Numbered from the stretch's first letter, positions 13,343 through 29,720 are shown. The stretch is DNA of 64,000 bases from Gemmatimonadota bacterium (GCA_028287305.1 JAQBPX010000019.1:62001-126000), one strand, 5' to 3'. Numbers and translations: made by a program. Notes: generated from the sequence alone by a model not told the origin.

Positions 13343-14290
13343 ATGGAACCGACCAGCAGGATCTTCGTCGCCGGACACCGCGGGCTGGTGGGCTCGGGCC
13401 TCGTGCGCGCGCTCACGGCGCAGGGGTATGTGAACCTCATCACTCGCACCCGGGGCGAGCTGGACCTGCTGGACAGCGCCGCCGTCGAGCGCTTCTACGT
13501 GCAGGAGCAGCCCGAGTTCGTACTGGTCGCCGCGGCGAAGGTCGGCGGCATCCTGGCGAACGACAGCTTTCCCGCGGACTTCATCCGCGAGAACCTGCTC
13601 CTCCAGCTCAACATCATCGACGGCGCCTGGCGGCATGGCGTGAACAAGCTGCTCTTCCTCGGCAGCGCCTGCGTCTATCCCAAGGTGGTGGAGCAGCCGA
13701 TTCGCGAGGAGGCGCTGCTCTCCGGGCTGCTCGAGCCCACCAACGAGCCCTATGCGATCGCGAAGATCGCGGGCCTCTCGATGTGCCAATCGTACAACCG
13801 GCAGTTCGGCACGCACTTCATCTCGGTGATGCCGACCAACCTGTACGGCCCGAACGACAACTTCAGCCACACCACCAGCCACGTGCTGCCGGCGCTCATG
13901 CGCCGCTTTCATGAAGCCAAGCTCGCGCAGCTCCCGAGCGTGCGGGTCTGGGGAACCGGAAAGCCCAGGCGGGAGTTCCTGCACGTGGACGACATGGCGT
14001 CGGCGTGCGTCTTCGTGATGCAGCACTACGACCGGTCCGAGATCCTGAACGTGGGGTGTGGCGTGGACGTGGAGATCGGCGAGCTGGCGGCGCTGATCAA
14101 GCGGGTTGTGGGGTACGAAGGGGCAATCGAGTTCGATACGTCGAGGCCCGACGGCACCCCGGCGAGGCGGCTCGACGTGAGCCGGCTGGCGGCCCTGGGG
14201 TGGCAGCCGCAGATCGGGCTGGAGCATGGGCTGAAGGAGACGTATCGGTGGTTCCTGGCGCAGGATGGGGCCTTTCGGGACAATACCTGA
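13343..14290 (+). CDS. fcl: GDP-L-fucose synthase
   Basis: NADPH-dependent epimerase/reductase that converts GDP-4-keto-6-deoxy-D-mannose to GDP-L-fucose. The 315 residues have the extended-SDR loop GHRGLVGS (11-18), the family motif LGSACVYPK (Ser108), catalytic Tyr137 and Lys141 in NEPYAIAK, and PTNLYGPNDNF. The partner GDP-mannose 4,6-dehydratase is not in the window, so its substrate must come from a distant gene. It opens the polysaccharide locus and implies a deoxyhexose in the polymer. A 200-base gap with a putative promoter follows. Confidence 0.93.
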   Translation: MEPTSRIFVAGHRGLVGSGLVRALTAQGYVNLITRTRGELDLLDSAAVERFYVQEQPEFVLVAAAKVGGILANDSFPADFIRENLLLQLNIIDGAWRHGVNKLLFLGSACVYPKVVEQPIREEALLSGLLEPTNEPYAIAKIAGLSMCQSYNRQFGTHFISVMPTNLYGPNDNFSHTTSHVLPALMRRFHEAKLAQLPSVRVWGTGKPRREFLHVDDMASACVFVMQHYDRSEILNVGCGVDVEIGELAALIKRVVGYEGAIEFDTSRPDGTPARRLDVSRLAALGWQPQIGLEHGLKETYRWFLAQDGAFRDNT

Positions 14291-14334
14291 GACGCTTCTT
14301 GACGGTGAGGGGCCAGGTGGTGATTCAAACGGTT

Positions 14335-14375
14335 ACCAGTTAGTCACTTAGGCGTCACATGTACAATAAAGTGAC
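14335..14375 (+). promoter_or_regulatory. putative promoter/operator in front of the glycosyltransferase and lasso operon
   Basis: In an AT-richer gap of about 200 bases there are ACCAGTTA (14335-14342), GCGTCAC (14352-14358), a TACAAT -10-like hexamer (14362-14367) and a 7-bp inverted repeat GTCACTT/AAGTGAC (14343-14349 and 14369-14375). The ACCAGTTA-GCGTCAC pair recurs at 41541-41556 near the other end of the locus. Confidence 0.4.
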
Positions 14376-14500
14376 GTTGCACGATTCCTAGACGAATCGC
14401 AGATTCAACCACATCAAGCAGTGGGCTCTCGAGGGTCGCGCATGACTTGGCCACCTTCGAAGTATTGGCTGGATCTCCGCCCGTACCCGTAATTCCCTTC

Positions 14501-16006
14501 ATGCTCCTCGCCGCGCTCGTCGCCTGCATCGCCTGCCTCGCGCTCACATGGACGCTCGTCCGTGTCGCGCCGCGTGCGCAGCGTCGCAATCGGCGACCCT
14601 CACATCGGCCGGCGCTGGCGCCGGCGGTGCCGAGGCTCGGTGGGCTGGCGGTGTTCGGCGCGGTGGCGGCGGCCGTCTTCGCCTGGGTGATGCTTAATCC
14701 CGGCTCGGACGTGCTGCACGGGCTGAATGGCATCATTGCCGGCGCCACGGTCCTGTTCTTCACGGGCCTCGTGGATGACCTGATCGACCTTTCGCCGGCC
14801 ATCAAGCTCCTCTCGCAGTTCGCGGCGGCAGGGCTCGCAGTGGGCAGCGGCATCCTGGTCAGCACGGCCTCGTTCGGCCAGGCGGGGAGCATATCGCTCG
14901 GCCTCCTCGCGGTCCCGATGACGCTCTTCTGGATCGTGGGCGTCACGAACGGCTTCAACTTCGTGGACGGGCTCGATGGCCTGGCTGGCGGCGTGGGTGC
15001 GGTCACCCTGACGGGTGTCGCGATCGTCGCGTCGCTCCTCGGTCATCCGACGGTCGCGATGCTCGCGCTGGTCACGACCTGCGCCCTCGTCGGCTTCCTC
15101 CGCTTCAACATCGCTCCCGCGCGCATCTACCTCGGCGATTCCGGGAGCCAGTTCGTCGGCTTCCTGCTCGCCACGCTCTCGCTGCTCGGCTCCTCGACGA
15201 ACCGTGGCACGCTGGTGCTCGTGCCGATCGCGGCGGCGGTGCTGCCGCTGTCGGACATGCTGCTCGCCATCGCTCGACGCGTGCTGCGTGGCATTCCCGT
15301 GTGGATCGGCGACCACCGCCACATCCATCATCGCGTGGTGTCGCTCGGGTACACGGAGCGCCAGGGCGCCATGCTGCTGGCCGGAAGCGCCGGCGTGGTG
15401 ATGATGCTCGGGATGTTCGGCGCGCTCGTCGCTGGTGCCGTGGTGCCGTCGACGCTCGCGCTCGGCGTACTGGGCGCACTGGCAGCGAGCGTGTTTGCGC
15501 TGCGCCAGCTGGACTACTATGAGATCACCGCGGTGATCTCCGGCATCGCCAGCGGTCGCAACGACCTGGCCCAGGCCATTCGCGACGAGATCCACGCGCG
15601 CGACCACGCGCTCGAGATCCATCACGCGCGCTGGTTCGACGAGGTGCAGTCGGTGCTCGATCGCATGGCGGAAGCCGTTGGCCTCGAGCGGATCGAGCTC
15701 GAGGAGCCCAGCGCGCGACCCGGCCGCACGCGCTCCCGCAGCGCGCTCATGCGCGCCTCCGTGCAGCTTCCGGTGAGCTCGATGGGTGAGGAGGAGGGCT
15801 GGTCGCTCCGCATCTGGCATGGCGGGCGCGACGTAGCCCGCGCGCTCGCGGCCGCGCAGGTCGCGCGCATCGTGGTCCCCGAGCTGATCGCGTGGTTCGA
15901 CCGCGCCGAGGCGTCCATCGCCTCGGGTGACGCCGTTCCGATCTCGGCCTACTCGCGCCGCTCGCGCCCGATGGCAGTGCCTGCCGTCGCGGCCGCGGAA
16001 GCGTAA
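14501..16006 (+). CDS. WecA/MraY-type polyprenyl-phosphate sugar-1-phosphate transferase with C-terminal extension
   Basis: Membrane enzyme that starts repeat-unit synthesis by moving a (N-acetyl)hexosamine-1-phosphate from UDP-sugar to undecaprenyl phosphate. It has about ten transmembrane helices with the family residues: Asp92-Asp93 in GLVDDLID, VTNGFNFVDGLDGLAGG (148-164), YLGDSGSQFVG (210-220) and the His loop GDHRHIHHR (270-278). About 145 cytosolic residues after the last helix (355-501) are extra compared with WecA; they are helical and may be regulatory. ATG 14501 is chosen because it begins at the first membrane helix; a TTG at 14447 in frame is possible. The lasso B1 gene begins 14 bases after its stop. 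Confidence 0.9.
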   Translation: MLLAALVACIACLALTWTLVRVAPRAQRRNRRPSHRPALAPAVPRLGGLAVFGAVAAAVFAWVMLNPGSDVLHGLNGIIAGATVLFFTGLVDDLIDLSPAIKLLSQFAAAGLAVGSGILVSTASFGQAGSISLGLLAVPMTLFWIVGVTNGFNFVDGLDGLAGGVGAVTLTGVAIVASLLGHPTVAMLALVTTCALVGFLRFNIAPARIYLGDSGSQFVGFLLATLSLLGSSTNRGTLVLVPIAAAVLPLSDMLLAIARRVLRGIPVWIGDHRHIHHRVVSLGYTERQGAMLLAGSAGVVMMLGMFGALVAGAVVPSTLALGVLGALAASVFALRQLDYYEITAVISGIASGRNDLAQAIRDEIHARDHALEIHHARWFDEVQSVLDRMAEAVGLERIELEEPSARPGRTRSRSALMRASVQLPVSSMGEEEGWSLRIWHGGRDVARALAAAQVARIVVPELIAWFDRAEASIASGDAVPISAYSRRSRPMAVPAVAAAEA

Positions 16007-16020
16007 GCCTCGTTCGCGCG

Positions 16021-16323
16021 ATGGCGGTGCCGTCGATCGACGCGGAGACGATCCTGCTCGCGTCCGGCTCCCAGCTGTCGAGCCGCCTCGGCGACGAGAC
16101 CGTGATTCTCGGTCTCGATGACGGCCTCTACTACGGCCTGGATGGCGTGGGCTCCCGTGTCTGGTCGCTGCTTGCCGAGCCGAGGAGCGTGGCTGCGTTG
16201 CGCGACGCGATCGTGGACGAGTACGATGTGGATGCAGCGACGTGCGAGGCCGACCTCGTCACGCTGCTCGAGGACCTGCTGCAGCGGGGGTTGGTGAGCA
16301 TCCATGATGGAACGGCCGACTGA
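16021..16323 (+). CDS. lasso peptide B1 protein: PqqD-like RiPP precursor recognition element
   Basis: A 100-residue PqqD-family winged-helix protein (ETVILGLDDGLYYGLDGVG, then SRVWSLLAEPRSVAALRDAI, then a C-terminal helix ending LLEDLLQRGLV). In lasso peptide clusters this stand-alone element binds the precursor leader and delivers it to the B2 protease. It sits directly ahead of the B2 gene, which it overlaps by 20 bases, and the precursor at 18601 has the leader motif this element reads. It starts 14 bases after the sugar-phosphate transferase gene, so it is probably on the same transcript. Confidence 0.92.
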   Translation: MAVPSIDAETILLASGSQLSSRLGDETVILGLDDGLYYGLDGVGSRVWSLLAEPRSVAALRDAIVDEYDVDAATCEADLVTLLEDLLQRGLVSIHDGTAD

Positions 16324-16759
16324 ACGCGCACGCCGGCTCCTTCGGGAGTCGGACGCAGTGCTGGTGGCACTCTGGTGGCACCTGTGGGTGCAACTCGCAC
16401 TTCGCGTGTTGTCGTATGCGCGGGTTCGCGCCCTGCTGTCGCGCTTCGAGCGCGCGAAGGCGGCTCACGCCGACACCGACACCATGCGACGCATCCTCGT
16501 CGGGAACGATCGCGCGACGCGGCTCATGCCGGGTTCGGCATGCCTGCAGCGGGCGCTCGTGGGCCACGTGCTGCTCGCGCGGCAGGGAATTGCGAGCGAG
16601 GTGCGGATTGGCGCGCGACTGGCGGCCCCTGCGGGGGCGCACTCGCCCGGTGCTCGCGCATTCGACGCGCATGCGTGGCTCGAGCTGCCGAGCGGCGAAC
16701 GATTCAGCGGCGGCGTCGCGCCTTCCGAGTTCGCGGTCCTCACTCCGCATCCGCGGTAG
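16304..16759 (+). CDS. lasso peptide B2 protein: transglutaminase-like leader protease
   Basis: A 151-residue cysteine protease that cuts the leader from the precursor. Catalytic Cys80 lies in MPGSACLQRALVGHVLLARQG and His123 in AFDAHAWLELPSG, the two conserved blocks of the family. An N-terminal amphipathic/hydrophobic stretch (about 18-38) is typical. It starts at an ATGATG 20 bases inside the B1 gene, indicating translational coupling. The cyclase gene starts four bases after its stop. Confidence 0.93.
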   Translation: MMERPTERARRLLRESDAVLVALWWHLWVQLALRVLSYARVRALLSRFERAKAAHADTDTMRRILVGNDRATRLMPGSACLQRALVGHVLLARQGIASEVRIGARLAAPAGAHSPGARAFDAHAWLELPSGERFSGGVAPSEFAVLTPHPR

Positions 16760-16763
16760 GCCG

Positions 16764-18572
16764 ATGCGCTCGTTCTGCGCCATCGTCCAGGGCCCCGGAG
16801 CGTCGCCCATTGATGTCGACGGGGACTTCGAGCGCGCGCTCGTCGCGCCCTTCGATGCGCACGTGACTTTCCGTCGCGATCTCGAAGTGACGCTCGCGCA
16901 GGTGGTGGATGAACACTCCAGCATTCGCGAGCCCCTGACGCTCGACGGGGACGCGTGGCTGGTGGGCATCGTTCGCCTGGATGCGCGCGACGCGCTGCGC
17001 GACGCGCTCGCCGGGAGGGGAGTGCAGACTTCGCACGACGTGCGCGACCATGACCTGGTGCTCCACAGCTGGACGGCATGGGGGGAGCGATGCGTCGAGC
17101 ACCTGCGCGGTGACTTCAGCCTTGCCATCTGGAGCAGCCGCGCGCGCACGCTCTTCGTTGCGCGGGACCAGATGGGCGCGGTGCCGTGCTATGTCGCCGT
17201 GTCCACCGATGGCACGGTGGCTGTCAGCGACAACGTCGCGGCGCTTCGGTGCCTTCCATGGGTGACGCCGAGCCTGCGCGAAACCGCGTGTGCGGACTTC
17301 GTCGTCTTTGGATACGTGCAGGACCTGAGCGCGACCGTGCTTTGCGATGTGGATCGCCTGCCTGCGGCGCACTCGATGACGGTCGAGGGGGGCAAGCTGG
17401 CACGACGGCAATACTGGAGCCTCGAGGCACCGGTCGCCGAGGTTCGCCGCTCGCCGCGCGAGGCCGCGGCGGAGTTTCGCGCGCTACTGGTGCTCGCGTG
17501 CGAGGACCGGCTGCGTGATTGCGCTTCCGCCTCGATCTTCCTCAGTGGAGGAAAGGACTCCACGGCAGTGGCTGCCGCCGCGCGGTTGGCCATGGGGCCG
17601 GGCTATCCACTCCACGCGATCACCGTGGGTTACGCGCGATCGCACACGGGCACGGAAGCTCGCCTCGCGGCGAAGGTCGCCGCGCGCCTGGGCATGTCGC
17701 ATCAGGTGTTGCGCCTCGATGATGATCGACTCTGTGGGGCGCGACGGCCCATCTCTCCCTTGCCCCTGGAGGACTGGGGCGGTTCCTCGGAGGCCGCCTC
17801 GCATGCTGCCGCGGCTGCGCACGGCCCGGTGGTGCTGACCGGATTCGCGGGGGACCCCCTGCTCCGCGAGACGTCTTCACACCTGGCGCGCATGCTCGGC
17901 TCTGGGCGAGTGCTGCAGGCCGTGCGTGAATCGTTCACCTATGCGCGCTGGCACCGGCGGGTTCCCAGGCCTGGCTTCCGCTCGCTCCTCCGACCCCGCT
18001 ACGTGCCGGCGGACGTGCCGCGCTGGCTCCTTCAGGACTTCGTGTCGCGCACCGGCATTCGTGAGCGAGCCGTGGCAATGGGATCGCCGGGCCTGTCCTT
18101 GTATCCGCAGCGCCCCGAAAGCTGTTTCTTGATGCAGCATCCATTCTGGCTTGCGCTTCGCGAGACGCTGCACCCCGCGGTGACCGGCCTCCCACTGGTC
18201 CAGCGGCATCCGTTGTTCGACCTGCGCCTGATGGATTTCGTCCGCAGCATTCCCCCGGAGCAGTGGTACAACGACAAGGGGCTGATCACGATCGGCTTCC
18301 GCCATGACCTCCCGGGCGATGTCGTGCGTCGCGAGAAGTCGTTCGGGTCCTCGAGTGGCATGGCGCTGCTGGCCCGCAATGCACGCGCGACGGGTGTTGT
18401 GCCCCGAGATGCACCATCGGCGGATTGGCTCGACCGCATCGTTCGCTCCGGCGAGTTGCCCGGCGTGCTGGAGGCGGCGGAAGAAGGCGACGTCGCCGCG
18501 CTCAGGCTGCACTGCCTTCGTTGGTGGGTTGATTCCGGGGCGGGCCAAGCAGATGCGCGCAGTTGGCGGTAG
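16764..18572 (+). CDS. lasso peptide cyclase (asparagine synthase-like macrolactam synthetase)
   Basis: A 602-residue ATP-dependent enzyme that adenylates the Asp/Glu side chain of the core and closes the ring with the new N-terminus. It has an N-terminal class II amidotransferase-like fold (1-215) without the nucleophilic Cys2 (it starts MRSFC), so glutaminase activity is lost as in lasso cyclases. The synthetase domain has the pyrophosphate loop FLSGGKDST (259-267; Lys where Leu is common) and VLTGFAGDPLL. ATG 16764 lies four bases after the B2 stop. Context (B1, B2, precursor) rules out primary asparagine synthesis. Confidence 0.93.
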   Translation: MRSFCAIVQGPGASPIDVDGDFERALVAPFDAHVTFRRDLEVTLAQVVDEHSSIREPLTLDGDAWLVGIVRLDARDALRDALAGRGVQTSHDVRDHDLVLHSWTAWGERCVEHLRGDFSLAIWSSRARTLFVARDQMGAVPCYVAVSTDGTVAVSDNVAALRCLPWVTPSLRETACADFVVFGYVQDLSATVLCDVDRLPAAHSMTVEGGKLARRQYWSLEAPVAEVRRSPREAAAEFRALLVLACEDRLRDCASASIFLSGGKDSTAVAAAARLAMGPGYPLHAITVGYARSHTGTEARLAAKVAARLGMSHQVLRLDDDRLCGARRPISPLPLEDWGGSSEAASHAAAAAHGPVVLTGFAGDPLLRETSSHLARMLGSGRVLQAVRESFTYARWHRRVPRPGFRSLLRPRYVPADVPRWLLQDFVSRTGIRERAVAMGSPGLSLYPQRPESCFLMQHPFWLALRETLHPAVTGLPLVQRHPLFDLRLMDFVRSIPPEQWYNDKGLITIGFRHDLPGDVVRREKSFGSSSGMALLARNARATGVVPRDAPSADWLDRIVRSGELPGVLEAAEEGDVAALRLHCLRWWVDSGAGQADARSWR

Positions 18573-18600
18573 CTTTCATCACGCATTCACCAGGGAAATC

Positions 18601-18753
18601 ATGAAGAGCGATTCTCAGGATCCGCGCGAGGCGGCGCCGCGCCGCTACGATGCGCCCACGCTGCGCGTGTATGGCAGCGTCCTCAAGCGCACGTTGAGCA
18701 ACCCGCTTCCCCACAAGCAGGACAAGGACGGCCTTCCCTCCACGAAGACCTGA
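18601..18753 (+). CDS. lasso peptide precursor (50 aa; predicted Ser1-Asp9 ring)
   Basis: The 50-residue peptide has the lasso leader motif Y-x2-P-x-L-x3-G-x5-T exactly: Tyr16, Pro19, Leu21, Gly25, Thr31. Thr at position -2 sets cleavage after Leu32, giving the 18-residue core SNPLPHKQDKDGLPSTKT. Core Asp9 is correctly placed to form a nine-residue macrolactam with the amine of Ser1; loop and tail are residues 10-18, ending in Thr. Ser at position 1 is rare (Gly is usual). AGGGA six bases before ATG supports the start. It lies 28 bases after the cyclase and 25 bases before a kinase that may phosphorylate the C-terminal Thr or Ser. The core has no Arg, Cys or aromatic residues. Confidence 0.88.
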   Translation: MKSDSQDPREAAPRRYDAPTLRVYGSVLKRTLSNPLPHKQDKDGLPSTKT

Positions 18754-18778
18754 AGGCGCTGGCAGTCGTATCCAGGAC

Positions 18779-19762
18779 GTGAGTGCACCAGCGCCAGCGG
18801 GATGCTGGAACTACATGGCGTTCGGCCTGGGCATCTCGAGCAACGTCGAGCTGCCGCTCCTTCCGTGCGCCGCGCCGGGAGGGGACCTCGACATCCGCAT
18901 GGGAGGCGTGCCTCCCAGCTTCGCGCGACTGGTGGATGACAGCCCGGAGCCGTGGGCGCCCGAGGCGCCTGCCGCGGATGAGCGCATCGGGAGCTATCGT
19001 CGACTTCGCGACAGTGGAGCGCTCGCGATCGACTTTCCGGACGGCGTGACCTTCGTGATCGCGGCAGACGGGACATCGATCTGGGCGCGCTGGCCACTGC
19101 GACATTCGCTTGCGTACGCGAGCGACTACATACTCGCGCCGATCCTCGGGCTGGCGCTCCGACTGCGAGGCGTACTCGCGCTTCACGGTAGCGCCGTGCG
19201 CATCGGAGATGGCGCGGTCGCCCTGGTCGGCCCCTCGGGTGCAGGCAAGTCCACGCTGTCTGCGGCACTCGTGGATCGCGGGCACGCACTCTTCGGAGAC
19301 GACGTAGTGGCCATCCAGTTCCTCCACCGGGGGGTCCGGGTGCTTCCTGGCGTACCGGTCATTCGCCTCTGGCCCGACTCGCAGGACGCGAGCCTTCGCG
19401 CACGCGAGCTACCGGCGCTACCGGAGCGGTGGGACAAGTCGCGCCTGTCCGCACTCGGGGTGATGGCTGATTCATGCCCGCTCATGGCCCTCGTGCTGCT
19501 GGACGCGCGCGAAGCCGGTGAGCCACTGCTGATGTCCGATGTCTCGCCTGCCCAGGCGCTCGCCACGCTCTCGCGGGAGTCGTTCGGGGCACGCATCGTG
19601 GACCGCCGCATGCGCGCGGAGGAGTTTCGCTCACTGCAGCTGCTGATTGACCAGGTGCCCGTCTGGCGACTACGGGCGCCGGACGACCTCGCTCGCCTGC
19701 CCGAGCTCTGTGCGCTCATCGAGCGCGGCGCCGACTCGATGCGTGGGGCCGACCTCACATGA
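18779..19762 (+). CDS. HPr kinase-like protein, candidate lasso peptide kinase
   Basis: A 327-residue protein of the HPr kinase C-terminal fold: LRGVLALHGSAVRI, P-loop VALVGPSGAGKSTLS (148-161) and LFGDDVVAI with paired Asp174-Asp175. The N-terminal part (YMAFGLGISSNVELPLLP) matches the usual opening of lasso-cluster relatives. In paeninodin-type clusters such kinases phosphorylate the C-terminal Ser of the precursor. Here the precursor ends S-T-K-T, so the terminal Thr50 or Ser47/Thr48 are candidate targets. The GTG at 18779 keeps the full N-terminal motif; ATG 18815 is an alternative. The stop overlaps the methyltransferase start (ATGA). Confidence 0.85.
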   Translation: MSAPAPAGCWNYMAFGLGISSNVELPLLPCAAPGGDLDIRMGGVPPSFARLVDDSPEPWAPEAPAADERIGSYRRLRDSGALAIDFPDGVTFVIAADGTSIWARWPLRHSLAYASDYILAPILGLALRLRGVLALHGSAVRIGDGAVALVGPSGAGKSTLSAALVDRGHALFGDDVVAIQFLHRGVRVLPGVPVIRLWPDSQDASLRARELPALPERWDKSRLSALGVMADSCPLMALVLLDAREAGEPLLMSDVSPAQALATLSRESFGARIVDRRMRAEEFRSLQLLIDQVPVWRLRAPDDLARLPELCALIERGADSMRGADLT

Positions 19763-20922
19763 CGCCGACGGAAGTGGCGGGAAAGCAGTACTCGCTGGAC
19801 CAGTACCGTTCCATGATCCACGACCGCACCCGCGATCAGTGGATTGCCGCCATCCGGGCTAGCGTGCGACCCGGGGACGTGGTGATCGACCTGGGCGCGG
19901 GACCCGGCTTTTTTGCGGTGCTCGCAGCCCAGCTTGGCGCCTCGCACGTGTATGCGATCGACCCCAATCCCGCCGTCGAGCTCACCCGCGACGTGGCAGA
20001 GGCGAACGGGGTCCTCGACCGGGTCACGATCGTGCGCGGGCTGTCGAGTGAATTTTCGCTGGAGGGTGGTGCCGACGTCATCATCGCCGACGTGCACGGC
20101 CAGCTTCCCTTCTACCATGACTGCATCCGCACGCTCGACGATGCGCGCCGCCGCTTGCTTGCCCCCGGCGGGCGGCTGTTGCCCATGCGCGACCGCGTGC
20201 TCGCGGCGCCGGTGGAGCTGCCCGATGACTATGCGCAGTTCATCGAGTCGTGGGGTATGCACTGGAGCGGGGTGGACCTCGGCGTATTGCGTCCGCGCGC
20301 CGAGCACCTGATGCTGGCCTCCTTTCCCCCGGGAGATGTAGCGCTCGCGCCATCCGCCGAGTGGGCGTCGCTGGACTACGTGGCGGGCGCTGCGCCGAGC
20401 GCGCGCGGCGAGATGACCTTCGACATCGCCCGGGATGGCACCTGTCATGGGGTGCTCACCTGGTTCGAGTGCGAGATTGCGCCGGGCATCTCCTTCACCA
20501 CTGCGCCCTTCGAGTCGCGATCGATCTATACGCCTGCGTTCTGCGCGTGGCCTGCCGCGACGGCACTTCGCCGAGGGGAGCGCCTCACCGTGAAGATGGG
20601 CGCGCATTTGATGCCCGACGGATATGTATTCTCCATGGAGACCGTGCTTCCGGATGGCAGGAGGTTCGCGCAGTCGTCGCTCGATCATGCCATGGCGGCA
20701 CCCGCACTGCTCCGGAGCGAGTCATCCGGCTTCGTTCCCAACCTGTCTCCGGCCGGCTCCGTGGCGCGCGTGGTGCTCGAGGCGATAGACGGGCGGCGCA
20801 CGCATGGTCAGCTCGCGCGACTGGTCGCCGCGACGTTTCCGCAGCGCTTTGCGCGGTGGGAGGATGCGATGGACGTCGTGACTACGCTCACGCGCTCGTA
20901 TGCGCGGAATCAGGATGGCTGA
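19759..20922 (+). CDS. PRMT-fold SAM methyltransferase with C-terminal winged-helix segment (lasso tailoring candidate)
   Basis: A 387-residue protein. Residues 10-140 form a class I SAM domain (VVIDLGAGPGFFAV, 41-54; acidic IDPN, 67-70). Residues 145-300 resemble the beta-barrel of protein arginine methyltransferases. Aligned by eye, the double-E loop reads ADVHGQLPFYHD, so the two catalytic Glu are Asp111 and His120, and the THW loop is replaced (SIYTPAFCAW). It is therefore unlikely to be a normal arginine methyltransferase, in line with an Arg-free core peptide. Residues about 330-381 (SVARVVLEAIDGRRTHGQLA) look like a small PqqD-like winged helix, possibly for leader binding. Both assignments are inference. 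Four-base overlap with the kinase and eight-base overlap with the next gene. Confidence 0.8.
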   Translation: MTPTEVAGKQYSLDQYRSMIHDRTRDQWIAAIRASVRPGDVVIDLGAGPGFFAVLAAQLGASHVYAIDPNPAVELTRDVAEANGVLDRVTIVRGLSSEFSLEGGADVIIADVHGQLPFYHDCIRTLDDARRRLLAPGGRLLPMRDRVLAAPVELPDDYAQFIESWGMHWSGVDLGVLRPRAEHLMLASFPPGDVALAPSAEWASLDYVAGAAPSARGEMTFDIARDGTCHGVLTWFECEIAPGISFTTAPFESRSIYTPAFCAWPAATALRRGERLTVKMGAHLMPDGYVFSMETVLPDGRRFAQSSLDHAMAAPALLRSESSGFVPNLSPAGSVARVVLEAIDGRRTHGQLARLVAATFPQRFARWEDAMDVVTTLTRSYARNQDG

Positions 20923-22024
20923 CGACCGGCCGTTGCCGGTCGCGCTCCTTCGCGCGCTGGCAGCGTGGCTGGAATCGCCTGGCGAGCCAGCTGCCCGGGT
21001 TGCGCTGGCGGAGTTACCTGGCACACCGGGGCTCGCTCGGCAGTTGCACGCTCACCGGCTCACTGCCTTGCATGCGCGAGCGTGCCTCGCCGTCGGGCTT
21101 CCGCTGGACGATGAGGCTGCAGCGTTCGCGCGCGAGGACGCAGCGCGCGCGATGCAGTCCCTCGCGCTGCTGGCCGAGGTTGCCGGCGCACTCCGCGATT
21201 CCGCGGTCGCGTTCCTCGTGCTCAAGGGAGCACCACTCGCCGTGCGCGCCTACGGCGACGCGCTGCTGCGCCGCAGCTCTGACGTGGACCTGCTCGTGCG
21301 TGCATCGGAGATTGCCGCCGCTCGACGCGTGTTGCAGGCGCTGGGGTTCGCGCCCTCTCGCGTGCGGAGTGCGCGGCAGGATCGGCAGCATGTACGCCTC
21401 GATGGCGAGGAGGCGTGGTTCCGGGATGCCGACGAGGCGCTCGTGGAGCTTCACGTTCTTGCCACTCCCCGCCGCTTCGGGATCGTCCTCGAGCCGGCCA
21501 TGTGGAGCGAGCCCACCCTGGTGCGGGCAGGCGCTGTCGAAGTCGCCGTCCCGCGCGACGGTGCGCTGATTCCCTACCTCGCGGCGCATGGCGCCAAGCA
21601 TCGCTGGGCGAGGGCAGAGTGGCTGCTCGCGTTCGGCCGGGTGTGGAGCACGGCACACCCGGACGAGCGCTCGCGTGCGCTCCTCACGGCGAGCGACGCG
21701 GGTATCGTGAACGAAATGACGCTCGCCCTCGAGCTTTGGGAACTGGTATCGCAGGACATGCCGGCGGAGCGCGCTTCACCGAGGACAGCCCGCATCCTGG
21801 ACCACGTGCTGAGCGGCGGGGGCGTAGTGCCTGGAGTTCATGCGCGGCTCGCGCTCTCCCTGCGATTGCGCGAGGGCGTCGCCGCGCGCACCGCGTTCAT
21901 TTTGCGATGGATCTTCGAGCCCGGCACCGAGGACTGGGAGGCGATCCCGCTCCCCGATGCACTGTTCCCGCTCTACTACGTGCTGCGACCCCTTCGCCTC
22001 CTCGCCCGTCAGGTCGCGTTGTAG
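20915..22024 (+). CDS. nucleotidyltransferase-family protein of lasso clusters
   Basis: A 369-residue protein with the minimal nucleotidyltransferase signature in FLVLKGAPLAVRAYGD and RRSSDVDLLVR (D-x-D), as in the uncharacterised nucleotidyltransferase family found with lasso and other RiPP genes. It might add a nucleotide to the peptide or to a protein, but no product is known to me for this family. ATG 20915 is chosen over an in-frame ATG at 20900 because it gives the ATGGCTGA overlap with the methyltransferase stop and a better ribosome binding site. The 3' end overlaps the convergent tyrosine kinase gene by 16 bases, with no terminator between them. Confidence 0.83.
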   Translation: MADDRPLPVALLRALAAWLESPGEPAARVALAELPGTPGLARQLHAHRLTALHARACLAVGLPLDDEAAAFAREDAARAMQSLALLAEVAGALRDSAVAFLVLKGAPLAVRAYGDALLRRSSDVDLLVRASEIAAARRVLQALGFAPSRVRSARQDRQHVRLDGEEAWFRDADEALVELHVLATPRRFGIVLEPAMWSEPTLVRAGAVEVAVPRDGALIPYLAAHGAKHRWARAEWLLAFGRVWSTAHPDERSRALLTASDAGIVNEMTLALELWELVSQDMPAERASPRTARILDHVLSGGGVVPGVHARLALSLRLREGVAARTAFILRWIFEPGTEDWEAIPLPDALFPLYYVLRPLRLLARQVAL

Positions 22025-24489
22025 CCGTACGCGGCGTAGTAGCCGCCGTAGCGATCGTACTTCGGCGTGCGCGCATCCGGATCATTGAGCACGGCGCCGA
22101 GGAATCGCGCGCCCACGGTGCGCAGCTGCTCGGCGGCGAGGCGCGCCGTCTGGCGCTGCGTCTTGCCGGCGTGCGTCACCAGCACCACGCCATCGGCGAA
22201 GGTCGCGAGCACCGACGCATCCGCCGTGGCGAGAATGGGCGGCGTGTCGATGATGACCACGTCGAAGCGCTCGCGCAACAGCACCAGCAGCTCGCGCATG
22301 CGGTCGCCGGCCAGGAACTCCAGCGGATTCGGCGGCAGCTTGCCCGCCGGGATCAGCGAGAGGCCGGCGCTGTCGGTCGCGCGGATGGCGCGCTCGATCG
22401 GCACGTTGCCGATCAGGAAGTCGGTGAGCCCCGGCTCCAGCGGCATGCCGAACACCTCGTGCTGCCGCGCGCGGCGCAGGTCGCCGTCGATGAGGATGAC
22501 GCGCCGCCCCTGCTGCGCGAACGTCACCGCCAGGTTCGCGGCGGTGGTCGTCTTGCCCTCGCCACTCGTCGCGCTCGCGACCACGATCGTGCGCAGCCCG
22601 GGCCGCGCCGACGTGTAGAGCAGGTTCGTCATCAGCTTGCGGTACGCCTCGGCGGCGACCGAGCGGATGTCGTTGATGGCCACGAGCTCGCGCCCCACGG
22701 ATTCTCCGGTGGAGGGCACCATCCCCGAAGGCCGAGCACGGGTGACGATGGTGGCGAGCCTTGCCCGCAATCGCTCCGAGCGGCTCAGTGCCTGACCCGA
22801 GGTCTCGGTGCCGAACTGCGGAATGACAGCGAGTGTCGGCGCGCGCACGATGCTCTCGAGCTCCTCCACGCGCCGCACGGAGCTGTTCAGGCGGTCGAGC
22901 AGGATCGCCGCGACCGCGCCGAATCCGAGCCCGATCACGAAGGCGAGCACCAGCTTCTGGCGGCGGCCCTTGCCGAGCGGGCCGATGCCGGCGCGACTGA
23001 GGTCCACGATCTCGACCTGCCCCGTCTCCACGGCCTCGTTGATCTTCGCGAGCTGCAACTCCTCGTTCAGGCGATCGGCCAGCTTGCGCACGTTGTCCAC
23101 GTTGCGCGTGAGCCGCACCTCGGTCTCCTCCTCGGCCGGCAGCGTCGCGATGCTCGACGTGCCGCGATCGCGCTGCGTGTCCACGCCGGCGAGTTGAGAC
23201 TGGATCGAGGCGATCTGGCTGCGCACGGCCGTGAGCAGCTTGAGTTGCGTGGACTCGATGATGGCGTCCACGCGCCGCACCTCGGGATGTTGCGAGGTGC
23301 GCGGGAAGGGTCCGCTCGTGAGCGAGTCACGCTGGCGATCGAGCCGCTGCAGCTCCTGGTAGAGCGTGGCCACCGAGGTGTTGATTGCGACTTCCGGCGA
23401 GAAGGGCAGCGTGCGGATCGACTCGCGCGAGGCGTCTCGCGCCGTGAGCCCACCCAGCAGCGCCTGGTACGACGCGAGCATCGCCGTGAGGTCGTCATGC
23501 CGCTTCTGCAGGGCGGTGAGGTCCGCCGTCTCGATGGCGTACTTGTCCTTGGCCGAAAACGATCGCGCACCCCGGCGATACGACGACAGCGCCGCCTCGG
23601 CGTCGCGAAGGTCGCGGTCGGTCTGCTGCAGCTGCCGCTGGATGAACTCGCGCCGGCGGCGCGACTGCTGCTGCGCCGACTGCGCGTTGAAGTACTGGAA
23701 GGTGTTCGCCAGCGCGTTCGCCGAGCGCTGCGCGAGCACCGGGTCGGGCGCCGTGACGTTGACGTCGATCACGGTGGTGAGCTCGCGCGGGCGCGCGTCG
23801 ATCCCGCCGAGCAGGCGGTCGATGGCCCCCTCGCGATCGAGGACGCGCAGCGTCACCCTGGGCCAGGGCGGCGGCTCGCGGAGGATGAAGCGGATGCCGC
23901 TGATCGTGAACGGCAGGCCGTAGATGCCCGTTGCGGTGTCCTTGCCGAATCGCGCCGTGAACGAATCACGATGGATGCCGAGGAACAGCGAGTCGTTGGG
24001 CGTGAGGTGCGAAACGGAGACGCTGTCGATGAAGCCGAAGTAGAATCCCTTGGTGCCGCTCTGGAGCCGGAGGCCGGCCGAGTCCACGACCGTCTCCGCG
24101 AGCGCGCGACTGCGGAGCACCTGGATCTGCGTGAGGACGGGGTCGGTCCAGCCACCCGACCCGCCGGCCACCTCGCCCGCGAGGTTTCCGGTGAGCGCCG
24201 GGCGCGGATCGGTGATTCGAATCGAGGCGCTCGCGAGGAAGACCGGCGCGTCGTTCCGCACCTTGCGCCAGGTGAGCGCCATCGAGAGGCCGCCGGCCAC
24301 GAGCACCAGCCACCAGTAGCGGAGCAGCGCCAGGAAGTACGGACGCAGCGGGTTCTCGGAGTTGAAGCTGTCGCCGCCACGCCCGAATGCCGCAGGCCCG
24401 ACACCAGCCGGGCCGAATGCGGGCATCCCCACCGGGACGTTTCCTCCCGCGGCGTGGGTCAGGCGGGTGGGCGGTTGGGATTCAGACAT
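22009..24489 (-). CDS. Wzc-type tyrosine autokinase / polysaccharide co-polymerase
   Basis: An 826-residue inner-membrane protein controlling polymer length and export. It has a Wzz domain with two transmembrane helices (about 55-75 and 512-532) flanking a long periplasmic coiled-coil region, then a BY-kinase domain with Walker A ASATSGEGKTTTA (638-650), Walker A' VILIDGDLR (664-672) and Walker B VVIIDTPP (744-751). The tail carries six Tyr in the last 16 residues (811-823), the autophosphorylation cluster. A GGAGGG ribosome binding site precedes its ATG. It is the last gene of the long minus-strand operon, and its start overlaps the preceding gene by eight bases. Confidence 0.95.
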   Translation of the reverse strand: MSESQPPTRLTHAAGGNVPVGMPAFGPAGVGPAAFGRGGDSFNSENPLRPYFLALLRYWWLVLVAGGLSMALTWRKVRNDAPVFLASASIRITDPRPALTGNLAGEVAGGSGGWTDPVLTQIQVLRSRALAETVVDSAGLRLQSGTKGFYFGFIDSVSVSHLTPNDSLFLGIHRDSFTARFGKDTATGIYGLPFTISGIRFILREPPPWPRVTLRVLDREGAIDRLLGGIDARPRELTTVIDVNVTAPDPVLAQRSANALANTFQYFNAQSAQQQSRRRREFIQRQLQQTDRDLRDAEAALSSYRRGARSFSAKDKYAIETADLTALQKRHDDLTAMLASYQALLGGLTARDASRESIRTLPFSPEVAINTSVATLYQELQRLDRQRDSLTSGPFPRTSQHPEVRRVDAIIESTQLKLLTAVRSQIASIQSQLAGVDTQRDRGTSSIATLPAEEETEVRLTRNVDNVRKLADRLNEELQLAKINEAVETGQVEIVDLSRAGIGPLGKGRRQKLVLAFVIGLGFGAVAAILLDRLNSSVRRVEELESIVRAPTLAVIPQFGTETSGQALSRSERLRARLATIVTRARPSGMVPSTGESVGRELVAINDIRSVAAEAYRKLMTNLLYTSARPGLRTIVVASATSGEGKTTTAANLAVTFAQQGRRVILIDGDLRRARQHEVFGMPLEPGLTDFLIGNVPIERAIRATDSAGLSLIPAGKLPPNPLEFLAGDRMRELLVLLRERFDVVIIDTPPILATADASVLATFADGVVLVTHAGKTQRQTARLAAEQLRTVGARFLGAVLNDPDARTPKYDRYGGYYAAYGYNAT

Positions 24490-25690
24490 GGTCCCTCCGG
24501 CGAACGGCGGGCCGGGTCATCACGTTGGAGTACAGCGCCACGGTTCGGGCGCCCATCAATTCCAGGCTGAACTCATCGGCCACGCGCCGGCGGCCCGCGT
24601 CGCCCATTGCGCGACGCAGCGGCGCGTCGTCGAGCAGGGTGTTGAGCGCAGCGGCCAGCGCATGACTGTCGGCGGGCGGCACGGTAATGCCCGTGACGCC
24701 GTCCAGCGACACGAAGGGCACCCCCGACGCAATGCGTGCATTCACGACGGGAAGGCCGCACGCCATCGCCTCGAGCTGCACCAGGCCGAAGGCCTCACTG
24801 CGGAGGTGCGAGGCGAGCACGAACACGTCGGCGGCATGATAGTACGGCGCGACCTGCGGCACGCGCCCGATGAACGACACGCGATCCGACACGCCGAGCC
24901 TCGCGACCTGCGCCGCGAGCTGCGCGCGCAGCGGACCCTGGCCCACCACGAGCAGCTTCGCGTCGACCGACGGCATGGCATCCAGCAGGAACTCGATCCC
25001 CTTGTAATACACCAGCCGCCCCACGGTGAGCACGATCCGCGGGCCATGCTGGTCGCGGATGCGCTGCACGTCCGCGGGGTCCGGGTCGGCGAGGAACCCG
25101 GTCTCCACGCCGAAGGGAATGACGACCGTGCGGTCAGCGTAGTGCCGGAGCAGCGGCGAGCTCTCGAAGTACTCCCGCGACGAGACGATGATCGCGTCCG
25201 CGCGGTCGAGCACGCGGCGCACCACGGGTTCGTAGATGAGGTTCAGCGTGCGCTGCGCGACGATGTCGCTGTGGTACGTGACCACCAGGGGGCCGCGGTG
25301 CCCGCTCGCCAGGTACGAGAGGAAGGCCGATGGGTTGGGATGATGCAGGTGCACCAGGTCGGGCCTGCCACTGCGCAAGGCGAGGATCATGCGCGGGCAG
25401 AGTGGGGCGCTCGCCACCGTGAGCCAGGTCCCCGCGCGCGTGAGGTGCACCCCGTCCACCACCTCGCGATGCGAGCGCCGGCCGTCGCCCGACACGACGA
25501 CGTCGAGGTCGACCGCGTGCCGGAGGTTGCGGCAGAGCGCCTGCAGGTGCGTCTCCATGCCGCCCTCGTGCGGCGGATAGAACTTGCCGACCTGCATGAC
25601 GCGCAGCGACCGCACCGGCGCCATCGGGCGCGACACGCGCGGCGGCGTCACGCCCGTGGGAGCGCGCGTCGCCGGCGACGGCGTGGTCAT
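24482..25690 (-). CDS. family 4 glycosyltransferase
   Basis: A 402-residue GT-B enzyme transferring a sugar from a nucleotide donor to the lipid-linked repeat unit at the cytosolic membrane face. The opening GKFYPPHEGGMETHLQAL is the acceptor-side loop of GT4. The C-domain has VLTVGRLVYYKGIEFLL and the retaining motif E299-x7-E307 (EAFGLVQLE). ATG 25690 follows the upstream stop by 19 bases; a longer frame runs into the neighbour and is not supported. The donor sugar cannot be told from sequence. Confidence 0.92.
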   Translation of the reverse strand: MTTPSPATRAPTGVTPPRVSRPMAPVRSLRVMQVGKFYPPHEGGMETHLQALCRNLRHAVDLDVVVSGDGRRSHREVVDGVHLTRAGTWLTVASAPLCPRMILALRSGRPDLVHLHHPNPSAFLSYLASGHRGPLVVTYHSDIVAQRTLNLIYEPVVRRVLDRADAIIVSSREYFESSPLLRHYADRTVVIPFGVETGFLADPDPADVQRIRDQHGPRIVLTVGRLVYYKGIEFLLDAMPSVDAKLLVVGQGPLRAQLAAQVARLGVSDRVSFIGRVPQVAPYYHAADVFVLASHLRSEAFGLVQLEAMACGLPVVNARIASGVPFVSLDGVTGITVPPADSHALAAALNTLLDDAPLRRAMGDAGRRRVADEFSLELMGARTVALYSNVMTRPAVRRRDHV

Positions 25691-25709
25691 CGCTGAACCT
25701 GGTGATCGC

Positions 25710-26855
25710 TCATGCAAGCACGTCAAGGTAGACATCGCGCATGCGGGCAGCGCACGCGTCCCACGAATAGCGGCGACTCCACCGGCGTCCCGCCTCGGCG
25801 CGCCCGGCGTGCACCTCCGGCGCGCCGTCACTCTCTTCCAGCAGCGCGCGAGCCCGCGCGGTCCACGCCCCGACATCGGCCACCGGCGCGTACTGCGCCA
25901 CGTCGCCTCCCACCTCTCGCAGCACCGGCAGGTCACTCGCCAGCACCACGGTGCCACACGCCAGCGCCTCCACCACGGGCAGGCCGAACCCCTCGCGCTC
26001 GGAGGGGAGCAGCACGAGCGCGGAACGCCGGTAGAGCGCCGCCAGCACCTGCCGCTCGAGCATGGGCATCTCGACGATGGCGCCAGCGACGCCAGCCTTG
26101 CGTGCCATCTCGCGCTGCGCCGGCGGCAGGGCGCCACCCACGCGCACGAGCCGAAGCGACGGACGCCACGCGAGCAGCGCGCCCATCACCTCGAGCAGCA
26201 CGTCGATTCGCTTGCGGGAAATGGTGCTCCCCACATGCATCACGAACGGTTGCTGCACCCCCTCCAAGAGACGGTCCGCAGCCTGTTCCGCAACGGCGCT
26301 GGGCGGCTCGAGGAAGTCCTGGTGCACCGCCAGCGGTACGGTGACTGTTCGGTGCGCCGGCACCAGCCCATTCTCCACGAGCTCCCGGCGGGTCGCGTCG
26401 CTGTCGCAGGTCACGCGGGCGGCGGCCTGCAGCCCACGCAGCACGCGGCCGGTCACGTGCCGAAACAGCGCCGAGCGAGCCTCCCGGGGCGGCACGAGCA
26501 ACGAGCGGAATGCGTCGATGTCATGGCAGGTGACCACGCAGCGCCCACGCGGCAGCGACGACACCACGTGGGCATAGCTGTGGTCCATCACGTGCCAGAG
26601 CTCCACGCCGCGCCCCGGATGGCGATTGACCCACCCAGGATACCAGGCGTAGCGCGCCCAGCCACGAATCGCCGCATCGAGCGCCGGCACAGGCGCCGAC
26701 CGCAGCGCATGCAGGGGGTGCGGCGACGCCGGACGGATGAGGGTGGTGGCGACGGGTGGATCGAGCCGCGGGAGCGCCTCTGCCAGGGCCTCCGCCACCA
26801 GGTCCATGCTCGGCCAGCCTTCCTCACGCAGGTCGGCCACGATGCCCACGTGCAT
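25710..26855 (-). CDS. family 4 glycosyltransferase
   Basis: A 381-residue GT-B protein with CHDIDAFRSLLVPP, then MHVGSTISRKRIDVLLEVM (the GT4 C-domain opening) and the E-x7-E motif EGFGLPVVE. Best start is ATG 26855 (MHVGIVADLREEG), eight bases after the upstream stop; an in-frame ATG at 26879 would overlap the methyltransferase gene by 16 bases. It resembles mannosyl/rhamnosyl-type transferases in layout, but the donor is unknown. Confidence 0.9.
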   Translation of the reverse strand: MHVGIVADLREEGWPSMDLVAEALAEALPRLDPPVATTLIRPASPHPLHALRSAPVPALDAAIRGWARYAWYPGWVNRHPGRGVELWHVMDHSYAHVVSSLPRGRCVVTCHDIDAFRSLLVPPREARSALFRHVTGRVLRGLQAAARVTCDSDATRRELVENGLVPAHRTVTVPLAVHQDFLEPPSAVAEQAADRLLEGVQQPFVMHVGSTISRKRIDVLLEVMGALLAWRPSLRLVRVGGALPPAQREMARKAGVAGAIVEMPMLERQVLAALYRRSALVLLPSEREGFGLPVVEALACGTVVLASDLPVLREVGGDVAQYAPVADVGAWTARARALLEESDGAPEVHAGRAEAGRRWSRRYSWDACAARMRDVYLDVLA

Positions 26856-26863
26856 GGAATCGC

Positions 26864-27658
26864 TCAGCGCCGGCGGCACACGAACCAGGCCTGGCTGTTG
26901 GCCTGCGCACCGAGTGCGCCGAGTGCCCCGAGCGCGCCAAGGGGGGAAAAGTGCGTGTCCACCATGAAGTCCCGGTCCACGCGATGGCGAAGCACGCGCC
27001 AGTTGAATCCCTTGTGGCCGTGATAGCGGTTCGGCCGGCCGTCCGCGAAGGGTGCGTCATACACCGGTCGCGGAATCGGCGGCGCATCACCCGCCGTGAG
27101 CATGCGCAGCATCTCGCCCGCCGAGTAGCGTTCGCGCTGCGCATAGTGCGCGTGGACGAAACGTGCAGCCAGCGCGCGCGCCGCCTGCTTCACAACCAGC
27201 GGCAACCCCGTCTCAATCGGGACGCTGATCACCACCAACCCCTCGGGCGATACGAGCCGCTTCAGTTCCGCGAGCACGGTGTCCACGGCTTCCGGCAGGC
27301 AGTGTTCCAGCACTTCCGTACAGATCACGGCACCGAAGCTCGCGTCGGGCAGCGTGGAGGCCTCGCTCGCGTGGAGGAAGCGCAGGCGCGAGTCCGCGCC
27401 GAGGCGCGCGCGGCAGTCGGCCACCAGTGCGGCGTCCACCTCGAGCCCGACCGCGAGAGGCACGCGATCGCGCACCAGCGTGAGCAGCGTGCCATCGCCG
27501 CAGCCGTAGTCCAGGAATGGCGAGCCCGCGCGGGGCGCCGTGAGCTCGAGTGCCTTCGCGAACCGCGCGCGATGGCTCCAGGACATGAGCGAGATGCGCG
27601 TGTCCAGCTGCTTGTCTGCGTAGGTGCCGCGCGAAGTGGTGGCGGAATCCTTCGTCAT
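26864..27658 (-). CDS. class I SAM-dependent methyltransferase
   Basis: A 264-residue Methyltransf_11/25-type enzyme: motif I FLDYGCGDGTLL, acidic GLEVD, post-motif ICTEVLEHCLPEAV and LVSPEGLVVISVP. It probably methylates a sugar of the repeat unit or a lipid-linked intermediate, judged by its place among glycosyltransferases. Near the C-terminus is a short internal repeat GALGALGALGA, encoded by a small tandem repeat at about 26909-26944. The start overlaps the upstream stop by four bases. Confidence 0.88.
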   Translation of the reverse strand: MTKDSATTSRGTYADKQLDTRISLMSWSHRARFAKALELTAPRAGSPFLDYGCGDGTLLTLVRDRVPLAVGLEVDAALVADCRARLGADSRLRFLHASEASTLPDASFGAVICTEVLEHCLPEAVDTVLAELKRLVSPEGLVVISVPIETGLPLVVKQAARALAARFVHAHYAQRERYSAGEMLRMLTAGDAPPIPRPVYDAPFADGRPNRYHGHKGFNWRVLRHRVDRDFMVDTHFSPLGALGALGALGAQANSQAWFVCRRR

Positions 27659-28800
27659 GCGCGCCGCGTGGACTCGAGAAAGTCGAGCGTGCGGCGCGCC
27701 AGCACGGGCCAGGCGTATTCCGCTTCGGCCCGGGCGCGACCGCGCGCCGCGAGTGCCGCGCGCCGTTCGGGCTCCACGAGCAGATCACGGATGGCTGCGT
27801 ACCAGGCCTCGACGTCGCCCTCCGGCAGCACCAGCCCCGCTTCCGACACGACGTGGGGAATCTCGCCGCTGCTGCTTCCGAGCACGGGCACGCCACACGC
27901 GAACGCCTCGATCAACATGCGGCCCAGCTGTTCGCGCCAGCGCGGCGTGGTCTCGCTCGGCGCACACAGCATGTCCATGGCGTTCAGGTATCGCGGCACG
28001 TCGTCGTGCGACACCCCCGTGACCACGCGCACGCGGTCGGCGAAGGGTGTGCGCCACCCGCGCAACTCGCCGGCCATGGGCCCGTCGCCGACGAAGAGCG
28101 CGCGCCACGGCGTGTCGAGTCGCTCGAGGACCCGCATCAGCAGGCCGAGGCCCTTCTCGGGAATGAATCGCCCGAGAAAGCCGATCACCGGAACGCCGTC
28201 GTCAGCCCAGCCGAGTCCCTGCCTCACGGCCCGGCCAGCCTCCGGGTCTGGACGGAACGCGTCGACATCCACGCCCGTGGGGATCATCGCATGCGGTCGC
28301 TCGGCGTAGCCGGGCCGGTCGCGCAGTGCATCCTCCACCGTGCGGCCGAATGCAATCCAGCCGCTGGCGCGCCGCATGGAGTAGCGTTCGAGCCAGTTGA
28401 AGGGCGGCGGATAGCGCTTCGGGATGTTCTGGAAGGTCGCGTACACGAGCGAGGCGCTCCTCGGCGTCCAGCACGCCACCTGCGCACCAACGAGGACGTA
28501 CGGCTCCTCCCAGCAGTGCACGAAGTCCCAGCGATCCTGCAGGAGGGACTTCAGCCGCCACGCATATGCGGACAGGTGCGGTGACTGCGCGAAGTGCATG
28601 CGCACCCGCTCGAGCCGCGCGTTCTCGCCGGCCACGGGCGTCGTGACGATCTCGCCGAAGTCGCCGGGGAATCGCGTCGGCGCGACCGATGTCACGTGCC
28701 AGCGGGTGCCGCCTGCGCGTCCTAGCTCGTCGGCCAGGCGGCGATTGCGCGAGACGCTGTACGAGTGCGCGATCGTCAGCAGGCGAAGGGGCGCGGTCAT
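27655..28800 (-). CDS. family 4 glycosyltransferase
   Basis: A 381-residue GT-B protein: IGFLGRFIPEKGLGLLMRVL in the C-domain, ALFVGDGPMAGEL, and an E-x7-E motif EQLGRMLIE inside SETTPRWREQLGRML, followed by ACGVPVLGSSSGEIPHV. The N-domain has AHSYSVSRNRRLADEL and WEEPYVLVGAQ. The start at 28800 forms an ATGA overlap with the gene before it; an upstream in-frame extension has no support. Sugar specificity is unknown. Confidence 0.91.
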   Translation of the reverse strand: MTAPLRLLTIAHSYSVSRNRRLADELGRAGGTRWHVTSVAPTRFPGDFGEIVTTPVAGENARLERVRMHFAQSPHLSAYAWRLKSLLQDRWDFVHCWEEPYVLVGAQVACWTPRSASLVYATFQNIPKRYPPPFNWLERYSMRRASGWIAFGRTVEDALRDRPGYAERPHAMIPTGVDVDAFRPDPEAGRAVRQGLGWADDGVPVIGFLGRFIPEKGLGLLMRVLERLDTPWRALFVGDGPMAGELRGWRTPFADRVRVVTGVSHDDVPRYLNAMDMLCAPSETTPRWREQLGRMLIEAFACGVPVLGSSSGEIPHVVSEAGLVLPEGDVEAWYAAIRDLLVEPERRAALAARGRARAEAEYAWPVLARRTLDFLESTRRA

Positions 28801-29720
28801 CGCGCCTCCGGTGCGACGTACGGTCGCGGCGACCGCACCAGGCGGCGCCACTCGAATATGGTCCCGAGCTTCACCGGCGTGCGGCGCCGCCAGGTGTCGG
28901 GGAGGTTGCTCAGCAGGTTGCCCACCAGGCGCACGAAACCACCCGGGTCGTCGATCTTCCATCCGCGACGCATGCGGAAGTAACCGACCAGTCGCATGGG
29001 CACGCGGATGAGGAGCACCGGCAGGGGATCGTCATAGAGCGACGCGAGCACGTTGTTCCGCGCCGAGAGGAAGAGGTACCGGCGGGAATCGCGGTTGTAC
29101 GGGTCCACGAGGTGTGCCACGCGGGTTCCCGGAAGGTAGAGGACGTGGTATCCCGCGTCGAGCAGCCTGAGGGACAGCTCCGGCTCCTCGTTCATGATAC
29201 TCATCGGCTCGCGAAATCCGCCGAGTGCGAGGAATGTCTCCCGTCGCAGCAGGTGGGCGTAGCCGATGAAGCTCGCGACGATGGAGGGCACCGTGACCGC
29301 TGCCGGCTGCATTCCCGGCCAGGCGACATCGTCCTTGTCGGTCTGGGTGATCGCGACGATCGCGACCTTCGAGTCGCCCTCGATCGCCTGCACCGCACGG
29401 ATGATCCCGTCGGGGTCACGCAGCTCCGTGTCGTCGTCGAGGCTCAGCACGAAGGGGGCGCTGCACTCGAGCACCACGCGGTTGCGGGACGCGGCCAGTC
29501 CGCGATTGACGTCGTGCCTGATCACGCGAAGGCGGGTGGAGAGCGCGTCAGGCAGCCCGTCGCGCAACGCGCGCTCGATGGCAGGCTCCGACCCATCGTC
29601 CACCACCACGATCTCGCGCACCAGCGCACCGAGGCTCGCGAGCGACTCGATGCAGCGCCGAACGGACACTGGCCGTCCCTTGGTGGCGATGCCGATGGAG
29701 AGCAGCGCGTCAGCGGGCAC
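28797..29720 (-). CDS. family 2 glycosyltransferase
   Basis: A 307-residue GT-A enzyme. LLSIGIATKGRP opens the fold, VVVDDGSEP (Asp41-Asp42) binds the nucleotide, SLDDDTEL (95-97) is the DxD metal motif, and NEEPELSLRLLDAG is the acceptor/base region. No transmembrane helix is seen. The GTG at 29720 is preferred: it lies inside an 11-base overlap with the upstream gene and starts the protein just before the first strand. It is unlikely to use an upstream ATG, because that would extend into the neighbouring gene. Confidence 0.9.
   Translation of the reverse strand: MPADALLSIGIATKGRPVSVRRCIESLASLGALVREIVVVDDGSEPAIERALRDGLPDALSTRLRVIRHDVNRGLAASRNRVVLECSAPFVLSLDDDTELRDPDGIIRAVQAIEGDSKVAIVAITQTDKDDVAWPGMQPAAVTVPSIVASFIGYAHLLRRETFLALGGFREPMSIMNEEPELSLRLLDAGYHVLYLPGTRVAHLVDPYNRDSRRYLFLSARNNVLASLYDDPLPVLLIRVPMRLVGYFRMRRGWKIDDPGGFVRLVGNLLSNLPDTWRRRTPVKLGTIFEWRRLVRSPRPYVAPEAR

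Follow-up and report, generated by a model that had tools for sequence, protein, structure and literature searches.

Several characterised lasso-peptide systems bear on the locus described here. In the bsf cluster of Bradymonas sediminis, the kinase BsfK phosphorylates Ser3 with the help of B1, which aids both the kinase and the protease; the published rule for recognition of a leader by B1 is Tyr-17/Pro-14/Leu-12, and lasso rings range in size from 7 to 9 residues (PMC10368454). Kinases of the paeninodin type target a C-terminal hydroxyl residue, a His-Lys-Asp-Asp (H-K-D-D) set is essential in lasso kinases, and in pseudomycoidin the terminal Ser is phosphorylated and then hexosylated by PsmK and PsmN (PMC9266682). 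Reviews describe the lasso methyltransferase StspM as modelled on a mitomycin O-methyltransferase and LihM as a homologue of PIMT. First residues of lasso peptides observed experimentally include Gly, Cys, Ser and Ala, and Asn1 is also known (PMC12670498).

We analysed a 64,000-nucleotide stretch of DNA (the window; GCA_028287305.1 JAQBPX010000019.1:62001-126000) that belongs to a 4.37-Mb Gemmatimonadota genome. Seven co-directional genes occupy its plus strand at 16021-22024 in the order B1-B2-C-A-K-M-N, and most overlap or sit within about 30 bases of a neighbour. A first-pass annotation, made from the sequence alone, had read these as seven tightly packed genes of a complete lasso-peptide cluster. 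All seven lie where it placed them, on the plus strand, and belong to the families it named; for the kinase, the methyltransferase and the nucleotidyltransferase these families were upheld by profile matches. The word complete is apt for the gene set A, B1, B2, C, K, M and N and does not extend to export, as no transporter gene, ABC or other, lies within the cluster. A search for RNA families returned none in the window at gathering score. Judged from its sequence, the locus is a genuine lasso-peptide gene cluster, and the predicted peptide is of a known kind and, as a lasso peptide, a new member.

B1 (16021..16323, plus strand, as are all genes below) is a stand-alone, PqqD-like RRE predicted to bind the leader (Pfam PqqD, E 2e-18). 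It matches the lasso PqqD model NF033536 at E 9e-18, which is below the cut-off, and its nearest solved relative is TbiB1 (5v1u; E 5.5e-15 with phmmer). B2 (16304..16759), the predicted leader peptidase, scores 59 bits against the lasso B2 model NF033537, for which the cut-off is 33. Its Cys80 and His123 are invariant in 15 relatives; a further position, which is Asp in several relatives, is Gly in the window protein and varies among its kin, with Glu, Asn, Ser and Ala also found.

C (16764..18572) is a predicted ATP-dependent, asparagine-synthetase-like lasso cyclase with an intact ATP site, in which SGGKDS occupies residues 261-266; SGG and DS are invariant in 20 relatives. It matches the lasso cyclase model NF033535 at E 1.4e-52 with a score well below the curated cut-off and is therefore a distant member of that family. 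On the XrtA/PEP-CTERM amidotransferase model C gains a score as well, though a poorer one than on the lasso cyclase model. The protein is very divergent, with 36% identity to its nearest kin and a branch of 1.34 changes per site in the cyclase tree, where it groups with loci from a second family of the class (f6) and two loci from another genus of its own family (support 100/99). No cyclase homologues were found in plasmids at E 1e-40. Two contigs of the genome encode three more asparagine-synthetase-like proteins, each sharing 26-32% of its residues with the cyclase along a span of 250-300 positions.

Cyclase matches at E <=1e-40 were present in 24 of 179 genomes of the window's own family, with more in f6. 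In uncultured Gemmatimonadota, related cyclases are again accompanied by B1, B2, A, M, K and N, in varying gene order, and the C-A-K-M-N part of the window's gene order is common only to two f6 loci, L079 and L080. The L080 locus has a single K, M and N together with two cyclases, and a separate precursor follows each of the two. At 14 loci, L079 and L080 among them and some on cut contigs, no B2 was detectable beside B1, A and C. Because most genomes with such clusters carry a Transglut_core3 protein elsewhere, the leader may be cleaved in trans or by another protease in these relatives. In the literature that we searched, which covers a minority of the subscription papers, few papers join lasso peptides with Gemmatimonadetes or Gemmatimonadota, and judged by their titles and abstracts none of these deals with such a cluster.

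Upstream of the window cluster lie genes for a PD40-repeat protein, a GDP-sugar epimerase and a WecA-type glycosyltransferase that ends about 15 bases before B1, and downstream, in convergent orientation, a Wzc-like tyrosine kinase with a series of glycosyltransferases. An exopolysaccharide locus thus surrounds the lasso genes on both sides (13343-16006 and 22009-31161), and transcription from it may read through into them.

The precursor gene A (18601..18753), with AGGG about 6 bases upstream of its ATG, was recognised by the leader rule and by aligned kin and encodes the 50 residues MKSDSQDPREAAPRRYDAPTLRVYGSVLKRTL/SNPLPHKQDKDGLPSTKT. Its leader residues Tyr-17, Pro-14, Leu-12 and Thr-2 all match the lasso rule exactly. 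The strict leader rule, combined with an acid at core positions 7-9 (Thr+9 to Thr+11) and a short ORF, gave a single match in the 64-kb window and none in 7.7 Mb of simulated window sequence, the background of our chance test. The precursor had no match in Pfam and a sub-threshold 'lasso peptide' match in NCBIfam that spans the leader motif. Because the leader fits the positions of the B1 rule, residue 1 would be Ser, giving a predicted core, SNPLPHKQDKDGLPSTKT (18697..18750), with a ring from Ser1 to Asp9, a tail to Thr18 and a predicted lasso mass of 1944.006 Da.

For comparison, we gathered 54 precursors, the window's included, by the leader pattern beside cluster genes, followed by manual curation. 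Leader conservation among them therefore reflects selection; acid position and C-terminal residues were not selected for. These precursors are not independent of one another. The acid follows the leader Thr at +10 in 32, at +11 in 18 and at +12 in 4, and all but one of the 54 carry a [KR][TS] pair among their last five residues (53, against a mean of 7.5 and a maximum of 16 in 2000 core shuffles). The window precursor, one of the 32, has Asp at both Thr+10 and Thr+12 and ends in Lys-Thr. The nearest aligned core, that of L080 (TL/NNTSNNMNDKGNGSFSMT), has Asp9-Lys10 and the terminal Thr in common with it. Because of the acid at Thr+10 in these 32 precursors and the C-terminal basic-Thr/Ser pattern, Ser1-Asp9 is the best reading of the core. 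The leader motif with Thr at -2 and the Ser1-Asp9 ring that the first-pass annotation had proposed are thus both borne out by the predictions, as is its expectation of related precursors with a conserved acid. Ser1, which it had called unusual, is not new, since Ser has already been observed experimentally at this position (PMC12670498); more unusual are M, the stronger novelty, and the divergent cyclase. A pair of Cys residues is present in some related cores (for example TCAKGYNDGTGAGCSMSFKKS and GCLSSATKDGPPGGGCHTKTR), which are possibly disulfide-bearing lasso peptides.

K (18779..19762) is an HPr-kinase-like peptide kinase (Hpr_kinase_C 34.1 bits, cut-off 33.3) that also scores against HprK_rel_A. 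Its H-K-D-D residues (His136, Lys157, Asp174 and Asp175) are invariant in 10 relatives. N (20900..22024, with an alternative in-frame ATG at 20915) is a PF14907 nucleotidyltransferase-like enzyme (E 4.5e-26) whose KG, DxD and ELH motifs are invariant in 9 relatives, and it occurs together with K in nearly all related clusters. The conserved basic-Thr/Ser pair points to a C-terminal phosphorylation site. The C-terminal Ser that is phosphorylated in the paeninodin type is replaced in the window by Thr after Lys; by analogy the cluster may work like paeninodin, yet we do not file it as that type. Because B1 aids both the kinase and the protease in bsf, B1 is likely a common adaptor in the window cluster as well.

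M (19759..20922) consists of a PRMT-fold methyltransferase (residues 1-311) and a helical C-terminal domain (about 312-387). Its profile matched PRMTs among solved structures at E 1e-39 (hmmsearch), and residues 1-311 of an AlphaFold2 model (pLDDT 84.5) aligned with PRMT1, PRMT8 and CARM1 at Z 31-32 (Foldseek E 1.9e-24). The double-Glu loop, SEWMGNCLLFE in PRMT2, reads ADVHGQLPFYH in the window protein, in which the first Glu is replaced by Asp111, invariant in the family, and the second by His120, which is not conserved in its kin; the THW motif of PRMTs is absent from M. Because the double-Glu pair and the THW motif are missing, we interpret the modelled protein as PRMT-like in fold and, by its residues, not an ordinary arginine methyltransferase. 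For the C-terminal domain, the best structural match was PqqD (3g2b; Z 7.4 over 53 residues, rmsd 2.3 A, Foldseek E 0.65). The domain may be an RRE fused to M: the likeness to PqqD is suggestive and not significant by Foldseek or by profile comparison with B1, and the model of the domain is free of beta strands.

M was found in 26 genomes of the family; in 25 it adjoins lasso genes, and the last copy lies on a 5-kb contig. Some clusters (five of those compared) are without M, which is therefore an accessory gene; no core residue was seen to track its presence or absence when cores were compared by eye. A search of plasmids for PRMT-like M proteins retrieved one distant match, in Tropicibacter and outside a lasso context, and viral contigs gave only four weak matches, to the SAM domain. 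No PRMT was found in the lasso-peptide literature that we searched; as this covers a minority of the subscription papers, such reports may nevertheless exist.

Taken together, we read the locus as a class II lasso-peptide cluster that looks functional, from a bacterium that is probably of the Gemmatimonadaceae, with the following pathway, and give this reading a probability of about 0.8; the reactions, their order, the sites and the threading are inferred. B1 would bind the leader through Tyr-17, Pro-14 and Leu-12. K would phosphorylate the precursor on a hydroxyl close to its C-terminus, with Thr18 as the likeliest site, because of the analogy with paeninodin and pseudomycoidin and the conserved basic-Thr/Ser pair, and N would then add a sugar (hexose) or a nucleotidyl group to the phosphate. 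M would methylate the peptide, probably in its C-terminal half, with the C-terminal carboxylate, Lys17 or Asp as candidate sites. B2 would cut after Thr-Leu, and C would link the Ser1 amine with the Asp9 side chain so that the ring closes around the tail, leaving a 9-residue ring and a 9-residue loop and tail. Points against this pathway are the divergence of the cyclase and the core, a family-wide cleavage site that the spacing leaves uncertain, the missing transporter gene and the behaviour of bsf, the closest characterised A, B1, B2, C, K and N set, in which Ser3 and not the C-terminus is phosphorylated.

The bsf precedent suggests that K, like the B1-aided BsfK (PMC10368454), could instead target a residue in the ring or at the N-terminus, with the C-terminal Lys-Thr serving threading or M. 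We consider this unlikely. The only hydroxyl in the window ring belongs to Ser1, whose amine would be used to close the ring; unless an enzyme acts there, the conservation of [KR][TS] at the C-terminus is difficult to account for, and kinases of the paeninodin type do act on such a hydroxyl. The spacing of the acid raises a separate question about the boundary of the core. Where the acid lies at +11 or +12, as it does in 22 precursors, a core that starts at Thr+2 would require a ring of 10 or 11 residues, beyond the published range, and one that starts at Thr+4 gives a ring of 8 or 9; the residue at Thr+4 in these precursors is mostly Gly, Ser, Ala or Thr. A second Thr occurs two residues after the leader Thr in 13 of the 54. 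The boundary between leader and core therefore probably shifts by two residues within the precursor family, and in the window cleavage might fall after Ser (Asn1-Asp8), with Asn1 known experimentally from metanodin (PMC12670498), or after Asn (Pro1-Asp7). For the window precursor itself such a boundary seems quite improbable: its Thr+4 is Pro, presumably a poor N-terminal nucleophile, which argues for Ser1; at Thr+2 it has Ser, which is an established first residue and fits the leader positions; and the L080 core has the same spacing.

The surroundings of the cluster allow a reading that would set lasso biosynthesis aside, namely an exopolysaccharide-type set of PqqD, HPr-kinase-like and nucleotidyltransferase proteins with an exopolysaccharide-associated asparagine-synthetase homologue. 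The flanking epimerase, WecA-type transferase, Wzc-like kinase and glycosyltransferases would suit such a set, as would the scores of C on the XrtA/PEP-CTERM model and of K on HprK_rel_A. However, B2 lies above the curated lasso cut-off, C scores better on the lasso model, the precursor carries the full leader rule, and precursors recur beside cluster genes in many genomes, and we regard this explanation as very improbable indeed. We therefore retain the lasso cluster with the Ser1-Asp9 ring and a C-terminal kinase site.

If this assignment is correct, the locus represents a lasso-peptide subfamily that has many members in Gemmatimonadota, mostly uncultured, and is apparently uncharacterised, with a PRMT-family, predicted peptide-modifying methyltransferase that is devoid of the arginine-binding residues and a conserved C-terminal basic-Thr pair that provides a concrete prediction for the kinase site. 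We are evenly divided on a further proposal: that an enzyme of the PRMT family, its active site remodelled, was recruited as a dedicated lasso methyltransferase of Gemmatimonadota, acting together with the kinase and the nucleotidyltransferase on the C-terminal basic-Thr tail to yield a lasso peptide that bears methyl and phosphate groups and possibly a sugar.

Comparison with known systems places these features in context. Like the window, bsf of B. sediminis (PMC10368454) combines A, split B1 and B2, C, K and N with a YxxPxL leader motif at -17 to -12, but its genes include an ABC transporter, D, and it has Ile at -2, a Gly1-Asp8 ring, a C-terminal Asp and phosphorylation at Ser3, and its published gene list is without a PRMT-fold methyltransferase. 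Pseudomycoidin (psm) and paeninodin have in common with the window an HPr-kinase-like K with H-K-D-D, and psm also N; the known peptides are modified at the C-terminal hydroxyl. Both are Firmicutes systems with a C-terminal Ser in place of Lys-Thr, a D transporter in their organisation as published and no methyltransferase. Metanodin (PMC12670498) is, like the window peptide, metagenome-derived with a less usual first residue; it is gammaproteobacterial, with a classical ABC gene organisation and Asn1. StspM (lassomycin-type) and LihM (lihuanodin) are precedents for SAM-dependent tailoring of lasso peptides as proposed for M, but M, unlike either, is of the PRMT family. With the eukaryotic PRMTs (PRMT1, 6, 8 and CARM1) M shares the whole Rossmann and beta-barrel core (Z about 32), whereas its double-Glu loop is reduced to Asp111, THW is absent and a helical C-terminal domain is added. 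As predicted from sequence, the PRMT-family M and the conserved C-terminal basic-Thr pair would set this cluster apart from known lasso clusters.
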